Shown here in pieces: positions 9,382 through 14,766 of a stretch of 32,662 nt of DNA. The position numbers and the translations under genes were made by a program. The notes under the pieces are model-generated. The model made no database searches and was not told where the DNA came from. It saw only the letters and a list, made by a program, of their open reading frames with translations. Each line of letters opens with the position of its first letter. Position 1 is the stretch's first letter. The DNA is from Candidatus Nomurabacteria bacterium RIFCSPHIGHO2_12_FULL_37_29. Its GTDB lineage: Bacteria > Patescibacteriota > Minisyncoccia > Phycocordibacterales > UBA9973. The stretch is taken from the NCBI GenBank assembly GCA_001785675.1, contig MFUJ01000021.1, positions 2,139-34,800 of the forward strand, given 5' to 3'.

Positions 9382-9424
9382 AAATAAAGAAAACGCAAGG
9401 ATAATCCTTGCGTTTTCTTTATTT
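9382..9424 (+). terminator. Rho-independent terminator, 20-bp stem with TAA loop
   Basis: AAATAAAGAAAACGCAAGGA-TAA-TCCTTGCGTTTTCTTTATTT perfect inverted repeat. Confidence 0.85.
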
Positions 9425-9450
9425 GACAATGTTTTTTAATTTGTTAGTAT
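9423..9450 (+). promoter_or_regulatory. tuf promoter TTGACA-N16-TAGTAT
   Basis: Consensus -35 with 16-nt spacer to TAGTAT followed by G; same arrangement before rpsS. Confidence 0.75.
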
Positions 9451-9619
9451 GTAAATAACTGCACTTTTGGCAGTTTTTGTTTGCTTAATTCCGCCTTTTT
9501 TATGGTGGATCGCCGATCGGGCAATTATTATAAGTTTAATATCGTTAGTAGCTAAGCCCCAGTGACTGGTTCTCGTACACTGAGTTTTGGTTATTAATCC
9601 GCCAGTTGGCGGAAAAATT
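9451..9619 (+). promoter_or_regulatory. Structured 5' leader of tuf
   Basis: Hairpins CTGC-acttttg-GCAG+T5, CAGTG/CACTG and TCCGCC-AGTT-GGCGGA (9598-9613), the last ending 6 nt before ATG 9620. Confidence 0.5.
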
Positions 9620-12898: not shown

Positions 12899-13737
12899 TG
12901 AAAACATATAAACCAACAAGTAAATCACGAAGACAGATGACCAATGTATCTTACAGAGGAATTTTGACCGAGTCACAACCGACCAAGTCTCTGACTCATG
13001 GCTTCAGACGTTCTGTTGGGCGCAACAGTCAGGGGCGTATCACTATGCGACACAAAGGCGCAGGGCATAAACGCCTGTATCGTGATGTGGATTTTTTATA
13101 TAACAAGAAAGAAATTCCGGCGAAAATAAAATCCATTGAATATGATCCAAATCGAAGTGCATTTATCGGACTCGCTGTTTACAAAGATGGAGAAAAAAGA
13201 TATGTGGTATTACCAAAGTCTGTAAAAAGAGGAAGCTCATTTGTCGTTTCAGAAAAAGCATCACTTGAAGTTGGCAATAGACTTCCTCTTAAAAATATTC
13301 CTGTTGGAACTTTTGTTTATAATATTGAAATAAAACCCTATGGTGGCGCGAAGATTGCTCGTTCGGCGGGGATCTTCGCGCAAGTGGTAGCAAATGCTGA
13401 TAGGTACACAAATATTAAAATGCCTTCAACCGAAATTAGAAAAATAAATGAAAACTGTTGGGCATCTATCGGTACTGTTTCGAACGAAGAACATCATTTG
13501 GAAAATTATGGCAAAGCCGGACGGTCTCGTTGGAAAGGTATTCGTCCGACAGTCCGCGGTACTGCCATGAATCCGGTAGACCATCCATACGGAGGTGGAG
13601 AAGGCAGACAAGGCCGTGGGACTAAACGTCCAAAGACCATGTGGGGAAAAGTTACCGGTGGACGTAAAACACGTGGTCCAAAAAAATACTCAAATGTTTT
13701 TATAGTTTCTCGCAGGAAAACTGGGAAGAATAAATAA
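12898..13737 (+). CDS. rplB: 50S ribosomal protein uL2
   Basis: KPTSKSRRQMTNVSY...GRNSQGRITMRHKGAGHKRLYR...RPTVRGTAMNPVDHPYGGGEGRQGRG. Confidence 0.98.
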   Translation: MKTYKPTSKSRRQMTNVSYRGILTESQPTKSLTHGFRRSVGRNSQGRITMRHKGAGHKRLYRDVDFLYNKKEIPAKIKSIEYDPNRSAFIGLAVYKDGEKRYVVLPKSVKRGSSFVVSEKASLEVGNRLPLKNIPVGTFVYNIEIKPYGGAKIARSAGIFAQVVANADRYTNIKMPSTEIRKINENCWASIGTVSNEEHHLENYGKAGRSRWKGIRPTVRGTAMNPVDHPYGGGEGRQGRGTKRPKTMWGKVTGGRKTRGPKKYSNVFIVSRRKTGKNK

Positions 13738-13770
13738 AAAAATTACAAAGGATAATCTTTTGTAATTTTT
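13738..13770 (+). terminator. Terminator after rplB
   Basis: AAAAATTACAAAGGA-TAA-TCTTTTGTAATTTTT; 15-bp stem with one G-U pair. Confidence 0.8.
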
Positions 13771-13835
13771 GTTATTCACATTTTATTATTGTGTTGTTTT
13801 TTATATATGTTATATATATAAGTGAAGGAGGTGTA

Positions 13836-13949
13836 ATGGTAAAAACACACCATTACCACAAGAACAGATTCAGCCGACGAGTACGGCTGAAGGCTGGTCA
13901 TCGTTCCGACCGACGAGCAATTCGTCGTTTGGAAAAAAAGAAGAGTTAG
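13836..13949 (+). CDS. Unannotated 37-aa highly basic small protein (candidate)
   Basis: ATG preceded by AAGGAGGTGTA; translation MVKTHHYHKNRFSRRVRLKAGHRSDRRAIRRLEKKKS*. Below the ORF-track size cutoff. Has its own AT-rich promoter-like upstream region after the rplB terminator. Confidence 0.55.
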   Translation: MVKTHHYHKNRFSRRVRLKAGHRSDRRAIRRLEKKKS

Positions 13950-14087
13950 CGTCTGGTCTCATCCTGGGGGGTGTGCGATTCTGCATGCTCCCCATTCCTA
14001 TTTTCTACTCAAAAGTTTTAACAGTTTAGAAATAAGCGACTCATTTCCTGCCATTTACTTGGCCCGCCCATCTAGGAAGCCGCTCAC

Positions 14088-14115
14088 AATACACAGAAAT
14101 GCTCTGTGTATTTTT
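14088..14115 (+). terminator. Putative terminator
   Basis: AATACACAG-aaatgct-CTGTGTATT followed by TTT. Confidence 0.65.
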
Positions 14116-14116
14116 G

Positions 14117-14144
14117 TTGCTTTATTTTACGTATATGGTATATT
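14117..14144 (+). promoter_or_regulatory. Putative extended -10 promoter TTGCTT-N16-TATATT
   Basis: TTGCTT, 16-nt spacer, TGG-TATATT. Confidence 0.5.
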
Positions 14145-14149
14145 ACTAA

Positions 14150-14258
14150 ATGAATGGGTTCATCTCATATCTCAGTTTTTAACTCGCGAAGTTCAGGCAA
14201 ACTACTTCGTGAGTCTTAGGGGCTCGCTTGCAATCGAACGCAGGTGGCCCCTTTTTTT
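14150..14258 (+). ncRNA. Candidate small RNA / attenuator-like cassette with 11-codon uORF, hairpin and terminator
   Basis: ATG 14150 opens MNGFISYLSVF*; hairpin ACTCGCGAAGT (14182-14192)/ACTTCGTGAGT (14204-14214); terminator AGGGGCTCGCTTGC...GCAGGTGGCCCCTTTTTTT (14218-14258). Confidence 0.4.
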
Positions 14259-14274
14259 GCCCAAATTCATTCGG

Positions 14275-14302
14275 TTGACATTTTACTCTTATTTGTTAGT
14301 AT
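14275..14302 (+). promoter_or_regulatory. rpsS promoter TTGACA-N16-TAGTAT
   Basis: Same -35/spacer/-10 layout as the tuf promoter, including the ATTTGTTAGTATG-like -10 context. Confidence 0.75.
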
Positions 14303-14332
14303 GAAAATAAGCTCGTTAGGAGCTTTTTGTTT

Positions 14333-14408
14333 ACCCCCACACTTATATTAAAGATGTGCCTTAGGCACAGAGAGGGTACTCAAATATCTTTAATATAAGT
14401 GTGGGGGT
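14333..14408 (+). repeat. Perfect 23-bp inverted repeat in rpsS leader
   Basis: ACCCCCACACTTATATTAAAGAT (14333-14355) and ATCTTTAATATAAGTGTGGGGGT (14386-14408), 30-nt loop containing GTGCC-TTA-GGCAC; right arm ends 10 nt before ATG 14419. Confidence 0.9.
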
Positions 14409-14418
14409 TCATTTAATC

Positions 14419-14766
14419 ATGACTCGATCAATTAAAAAAGGTATATACGTAGATGAGGGGCTATTAAAAAAGATTGCTGGTAAAAACCCGCTCCAGACGG
14501 AAGTGGTGAAGACTTGGAAGCGCGCTTGTGTTATTTCTCCAGAGATGCTTGGTTTCACCTTCGGTGTTTATAATGGGAAAGTTCATGTGGATGTTCTCGT
14601 TACTGAAGATATGGTTGGTCATCGATTAGGAGAATTTTCTCCGACCAAGAAATTTATTAAACATGGCGGAAAAATGCAGAAAGAACTAGAGCAGAAGAAA
14701 AAAGAAGCCGAGATAACTCAAGCCAAATCAGCTACAGCGGCGGCTGATGATGCGAAGAAAAAATAA
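14419..14766 (+). CDS. rpsS: 30S ribosomal protein uS19
   Basis: MTRSIKKGIYVDEGLLKKI...WKRACVISPEMLGFTFGVYNGKVHVDVLVTEDMVGHRLGEFSPT; true start 14419. Confidence 0.96.
   Translation: MTRSIKKGIYVDEGLLKKIAGKNPLQTEVVKTWKRACVISPEMLGFTFGVYNGKVHVDVLVTEDMVGHRLGEFSPTKKFIKHGGKMQKELEQKKKEAEITQAKSATAAADDAKKK

Follow-up and report, generated by a model that had tools for sequence, protein, structure and literature searches.

The gap between the ribosomal protein genes rplB and rpsS of Candidatus Nomurabacteria bacterium RIFCSPHIGHO2_12_FULL_37_29 (contig MFUJ01000021.1; the window analysed here is the whole stretch of 32,662 nucleotides (nt) from position 2,139 to 34,800) raises the question of what a very short open reading frame (ORF) with a perfect Shine-Dalgarno sequence (SD) is doing in an organism whose own 16S rRNA lacks the anti-SD. 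The ORF comprises 37 codons, rich in Lys, Arg and His, and runs on the forward strand from the ATG at 13836 to the TAG at 13947-13949 (13836-13949 with the stop). It is headed by AAGGAGGTGTA-ATG, in which the SD AAGGAGGTG occupies positions 13825-13833 of the same strand. The original prediction had described this leader and the basic peptide exactly as found here, and the leader is more than a chance occurrence: the window contains a single copy of the 14-mer AAGGAGGTGTAATG, also when 2 mismatches are tolerated, where 0.28 would be expected. The whole 630-kb genome contains 7 AGGAGGT-N3-8-ATG sites (6 in the reversed control), the others heading one 163-amino acid (aa) gene, one 46-aa frame and frames of at most 15 codons, and AAGGAGGTG-ATG sites across the genus barely outnumber those of the reversed control. 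The energy of pairing with the canonical anti-SD is -11.5 kcal/mol for the mini-ORF, compared with about +2 to -5 kcal/mol for most readable starts of neighbouring ribosomal protein genes, the exceptions being rplN (-7.3 kcal/mol) and rpsS (-9.6 kcal/mol, via GGGGG); the claim that this SD stands out from its surroundings is thus borne out.

The answer that we prefer, with our confidence evenly divided, is that we are dealing with a real short gene, composed of a promoter-like block, a strong SD, the ORF and a terminator, which belongs to a fast-turnover class locked to this locus and encodes a cationic peptide whose role changes quickly. The class would encode Arg/Lys-rich peptides of approximately 20-70 residues, with charge constrained more than sequence. 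Such a peptide would most likely bind RNA or another polyanion and turn over rapidly, as an antagonistic or effector-like peptide would; it would not be a fixed component of the ribosome. The analysis shows the layout of the unit, its restriction to one locus, a statistical coding signal for the class, fast turnover and an own 16S without the anti-SD. We infer that the peptide is produced from this ORF, that it has a target of this kind and that initiation proceeds without SD pairing.

Searches of Pfam, NCBIfam, PHROGs, the PDB, phages and plasmids gave no match to the peptide, and the 79 congeners searched have no credible homologue of it; weak matches in four congeners (G014, G010, G021 and G078) were dismissed, none of them being in the rplB-rpsS gap and some containing stops. 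The source genome (39 contigs, 95% complete) has Candidatus Nomurabacteria as its nearest named relatives by uS19, and uS19 identity across the congeners is mostly 81-92%, as between species of one deep genus. In so deep a genus a peptide of 37 aa could become too divergent to be detected, and for this reason position was examined besides sequence. The rplB-rpsS gaps taken from the congeners range from 15 to more than 2800 nt, and 60 of them were usable. With SD-led ORFs defined as those of 15-120 aa whose SD reaches at least -8 kcal/mol, the 60 gaps contain 60 in the sense and 26 in the antisense orientation, as against 10.8 +/- 3.4 in dinucleotide shuffles; for strongly basic SD-led ORFs the numbers are 21, 2 and 0.9 +/- 1.1, a more than 20-fold excess over the shuffles. 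GGAGGTG is present in 15 gaps in the sense orientation and in 1 in the antisense, and the distance from SD to ATG across the class peaks at 7-8 nt. Under a strict rule (SD of -10 kcal/mol or better, charge of at least 0.15) a counterpart consisting of a strong SD, a short cationic ORF and a GC-rich terminator was found in 17/60 gaps, and with weaker cases included by eye, in 23 of the 61 gaps placed on the rplB tree. The ORF studied here shares with this class its position between rplB and rpsS, the strong SD, the short basic frame and the terminator. The original prediction had named a lack of homologues in close relatives as a refutation; by sequence the 79 congeners indeed have no credible one, but non-homologous counterparts occupy the site.

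As far as sampled, the class is restricted to one genus of Nomurabacteria and, within it, to the gap between rplB and rpsS. A sample of 397 kb from three congeners, with 175 intergenic segments, contains neither an SD-led mini-ORF that reaches -12 kcal/mol nor a basic one beyond the known gap unit, and only 0.3% of 397 long ORFs in these genomes attain that value; the 21 gaps from sister genera contain no SD-led basic mini-ORF. The cargo of the congener gaps is otherwise diverse and includes putative HicAB-like and RelBE-like ORFs, so named from their sequences. One such gap (L164 in G020) has the C-terminal end of rplB repeated 570 nt after rplB, past a HicAB-like insert, a layout that an insertion duplicating the gene end would leave.

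The SD of the mini-ORF is properly spaced from the start codon, and its complement is absent from the organism's own 16S. The canonical 16S 3' end is GGATCACCTCCTTT; of 80 genomes in the genus, one contains the searched pattern GGNTGGATCACCTCC. Read directly, the 16S of the source genome (G000:C14, L337) and those of 53 congeners terminate in GTGGAATAATTCAATTTGAAA or in a sequence close to it, with no CCTCC; the genus-conserved 3' end is GGAATAATTCAATTTGAAA (own genome and L307-L362), and the tail can also be given as AAUAAUUC. The canonical tail, located on a 4.3-kb contig of G030, is probably a contamination, since this genome also has its own 16S without the anti-SD. Judging from these sequences, the organism's own ribosomes cannot pair with the SD of the mini-ORF, which counts against taking a perfect SD as a sign of efficient translation. 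An intron concealing the anti-SD further downstream was rejected, as no CCTCCT or CACCTCC tail lies within 1.5 kb downstream of the 16S and the two matches found are unrelated; GGATCACCTCCT in the source genome was rejected as a 16S end because it is located elsewhere. A trans-acting anti-SD RNA is not evident in approximately 1 Mb of congener sequence, where the matches listed (at most 14 per pattern) are SD complements or coding-type sequence. The mini-ORF leaders show no pairing signal with the organism's own altered tail. Ordinary genes of the genus have A/T-rich leaders without SDs, and the cargo ORFs that can be recognised in this gap are SD-less as well, unlike the mini-ORFs. Loss of CCUCC from the 16S tail is already known for some lineages of the candidate phyla radiation (CPR) (PMC10783764, PMC6107228), and organisms without the anti-SD are generally without SDs too (PMC6107228). 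The genus resembles the SD-scarce prokaryotes of these reports in its CCUCC-less tail and SD-less ordinary genes (PMC10783764, PMC6107228), and differs in possessing one small class of genes with strong, well-spaced SDs. As a separate observation, approximately 825 nt lie between two adjoining 16S query blocks in the source genome (G000:C14:100-924), and this insert is probably an rRNA intron; rRNA introns are known in the CPR.

Evidence on translation was obtained at the level of the class. Net charge is highest in the frame defined by the SD, and the excess grows with SD strength (0.335 versus 0.147 and 0.052 in the 11 strongest cases). Two pairs of peptides can be aligned, L139/L153 and L148/L191 (2 and 0 of 20,000 shuffles), and in both the synonymous codon changes observed exceed those expected from random mutation (10 versus 2.5 and 9 versus 3.4). 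The frame-specific charge and the synonymous changes in the two pairs indicate that the class is probably translated, and translation in some cell is a proposition that we consider likely. Several points weigh against our interpretation. The enrichment at the -8 kcal/mol cut-off stems partly from purine-rich leaders (25 permuted tails give a mean of 33 and a maximum of 60), whereas at -12 kcal/mol there are 17 cases versus a permuted-tail mean of 3.7 and maximum of 16, some permutations retaining a CCUCC-like core. The pairs used in the synonymous test were chosen from 666 and aligned as peptides before the codons were compared. The ORF studied here has no alignable homologue, and its coding status would follow from membership of the class. 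Its start codon is embedded in a stable hairpin and the organism's ribosomes have no anti-SD, so that the organism itself may translate it poorly. Finally, class ORFs are more structured than their synonymous shuffles (mean z -1.7, compared with +0.2 for ordinary genes), and this excess suggests an additional role or selection at the RNA level.

The turnover of the mini-genes is fast. The peptides of the class are mostly unalignable, even between close species (666 pairs, mean z 0.17), and two loci, L153 and L190, have 85% identity over 536 nt of adjoining sequence and mini-ORFs that cannot be aligned. On the rplB tree, most inner branches of which are weak, the mini-gene label requires 11 changes versus 18.6 in shuffles, a distribution that is clustered yet patchy. 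One clade of ten species is well supported: the basic unit is present in 9 of them and a short ORF is preceded in 8 by an SD that reaches at least -14.7 kcal/mol, with different peptides; the 16S tails read for eight of the ten lack the anti-SD. The start regions of mini-ORFs are more structured than ordinary starts (p 4e-7), the GC content at third codon positions (GC3) is 0.58 in mini-ORFs versus 0.40 in rplB, and CGN codons account for 64% of Arg codons versus 58% in ordinary genes.

The 681-nt gap, from the rplB end at 13737 to the rpsS start at 14419, contains several predicted promoters and terminators, all on the forward strand. Immediately 3' of rplB is a terminator-like hairpin, AAATTACAAA/TTTTGTAATTT followed by a T-run (13740-13774), with similar blocks in congeners. 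The promoter-like block of the mini-gene, TTGTGT ... TG-T-TATATA (13789-13817), was read from the sequence and was not picked up by a consensus promoter scan; positions 13765-13827 of the window resemble sequence that several congeners have at the corresponding site. A terminator-like GGGG/CCCC hairpin would close the mini-gene (13965-13994), and a second terminator-like hairpin lies at 14088-14112. The stretch 14088-14258 belongs to a second unit, which has a promoter-like block, TTGCTTTATTTT-N8-TGGTATA (14117-14142); the unit proper (14143-14258) contains no SD-led ORF and ends in a GGGG/CCCC hairpin with a T-run. Across 80 genomes of congeners the promoter-like pattern has 14 matches, including 6 in the rplB-rpsS gap, and the control has none. 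The predicted rpsS promoter, TTGACA ... TAGTAT with the start element AAGCTCGTTAGGAGCTT (14275-14325), is conserved in the genus. The mini-gene thus looks like a separate promoter-to-terminator unit and, given its own predicted promoter and terminators and the separate promoter of rpsS, the ORF apparently lies in a break between two ribosomal protein transcription units and not within one.

The RNA of this region is predicted to fold strongly, with z-scores of -4.2 for the ORF and -3.5 for 13818-14120. The start codon is located in a 10-bp hairpin (13831-13859; -9.8 kcal/mol for the folded stretch), and two further hairpins lie within the ORF, UUCAGCCG/CGGCUGAA (13869-13891) and CCGACCGACGA/UCGUCGUUUGG (13906-13932), all on the forward strand. 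The start-codon hairpin, the unusual RNA structure of the ORF and the anti-SD-less 16S of the organism are features beyond the original prediction. A single-sequence AlphaFold model of the 37-aa peptide (P0001) contains two helices (pLDDT 73), which lends weak support.

A comparison with known systems leaves the mini-gene apart from each of them. The ribosomal proteins bL34, bL36 and bTHX are likewise short, very basic and encoded near ribosomal protein genes, but the mini-ORF peptide has no profile or PDB match, is unconserved within the genus and is apparently encoded outside any ribosomal protein transcription unit; the original prediction had not recognised it as one of the three. Arginine-rich RNA-binding peptides of the lambda N type are short, cationic and helix-prone; the mini-ORF may be likened to them as a short cationic helix-prone peptide with a hairpin-rich transcript, but differs in having no PHROGs match. 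Small orphan ORFs and cationic antagonistic peptides that evolve fast are similar in length, charge, rapid turnover and location at a cargo site with toxin-antitoxin-like genes, whereas the mini-genes have no identified export signal or processing gene, occupy one locus only and possess an SD in a genus without the anti-SD. Literature searches did not turn up the class of gap mini-genes. In RNA searches, Rfam gave no match at the gathering threshold and the weak matches were chance-like; a tRNA, a tmRNA or a known structured RNA was rejected, as was a phage or plasmid origin of this unit, for which no match was obtained.

Among the alternative explanations, an undescribed small ribosomal or ribosome-associated protein, the suggestion of the original prediction, would suit the composition and location of the ORF. 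Ribosomal proteins have a fixed binding site on rRNA and hence are conserved; the lack of a credible homologue in 79 congeners and of any Pfam, NCBIfam or PDB match, the unalignable positional counterparts, which share charge and not sequence, and the presence of a clear counterpart in so few of the gaps have already largely refuted this idea, which we regard as hardly tenable, while the unannotated basic mini-ORF itself is probably a real gene. A leader peptide or attenuator of the rpsS operon would agree with the upstream position, hairpins and terminators and is equally hard to maintain, rpsS having its own conserved promoter beyond two further terminator-like hairpins and the codons and sequences of the ORF being unconserved. 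That the transcript is a structured non-coding RNA with an incidental ORF is unlikely in our view: the strong folding of transcript and ORF, the structure of class ORFs relative to synonymous shuffles and the neighbouring unit without an SD-led ORF are consistent with it, but the frame-specific charge, the two pairs with synonymous changes, the peak in SD-ATG spacing and the absence of an Rfam match are not.

The remaining alternatives concern the reason for which the SD is retained. The mini-genes could be addressed to foreign ribosomes, with the SD kept for a host or neighbour that has a canonical anti-SD and makes the cationic peptide, the effector being delivered as nucleic acid (RNA or DNA). 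None of the 54 16S tails that could be read in the genus contains CCTCC, yet 8/10 clade species hold their strong SDs amid peptide turnover, cargo ORFs in the same gap are SD-less and a trans-acting anti-SD RNA was not evident among the matches listed. SD retention, start structure and GC3 fit SD-using ribosomes better than the organism's own; GC-rich hairpins alone could however account for the last two, the choice of Arg codons is near that of ordinary genes, and an export or uptake route for the message is not known. We consider this distinctly unlikely; if it were true, a genus that has lost the anti-SD would keep, at one fixed locus, messages written for a host or competitor. Export is not required if a protein or another RNA of the cell itself recognises AAGGAGGTGA by the start codon and controls the gene independently of the 16S. 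The SD keeps its position and spacing in this genus, and therefore something maintains it, but the motif closely matches the complement of the canonical 16S tail (AAAGGAGGTGAT forms), which other recognisers would not require, and no candidate was found in the approximately 1 Mb of congener sequence among the matches listed; such a route is unlikely in our view. The mini-genes might also have been newly acquired from donors with the anti-SD, the SD being a relic, as high GC3, the patchy distribution on the rplB tree and the cargo genes sharing the gap would allow. Retention of the SD across the clade despite peptide turnover, the lack of SDs in the larger cargo genes, the promoter-like blocks common to the genus and the absence of a phage or plasmid match for this unit make this decidedly improbable. 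A genuine short gene of a locus-locked, fast-turnover class remains the explanation that we prefer.

Other short ORFs and repeats were observed in the course of the analysis. In five congener loci (L225, L226, L239, L240 and L242), a perfect SD near 1500 precedes an ORF of 5-14 codons, often Trp-rich (MGWDVDWW, MLWDNEVEIDWWR, MWMGADECGFEEWF, MWPAADEVWS), 3' of which is an apparent H-type pseudoknot (e.g., GGGCC..GCGG..GGCCC.CCGC) with changes on both sides; these loci have no Rfam match. Near 1500 in L230 (G016), a Cys-rich 24-aa ORF with a perfect SD, MKKVSIARIKPVVRSTASCCMSCK, directly follows an apparent SPASM radical-SAM protein and is a possible precursor of a ribosomally synthesized and post-translationally modified peptide. 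Two SD-led peptides of 45-50 aa (L220 and L246) have related Cys/Asp-rich C-termini (ICDCD...CSN). The element AAGCTCGTTAGGAGCTT (14309-14325), directly 3' of the rpsS -10 region, is present in most gaps of the genus, with AAGCTC in 48/60, and a related block is found near 9423-9482, upstream of tuf. A near-perfect long inverted repeat, CCCCCACACTTATATTAAAGAT, lies before rpsS at 14333-14408; the gap of G079 (L195) begins with a similar one, CCCGCACACTTATTTT, possibly a small mobile repeat.

The loss of the anti-SD being already known, what sets this genus apart is one small class of genes with strong and well-spaced SDs. This amounts to a contradiction, as the genus retains a ribosome-binding signal with which its own ribosomes cannot pair. 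Either leaders of the SD type serve a role that is independent of the anti-SD, or the mini-genes are read by the ribosomes of other organisms. A class of small genes of this kind is likely to have been missed by annotation in poorly cultured bacteria, and its fixed address between rplB and rpsS eases its collection.
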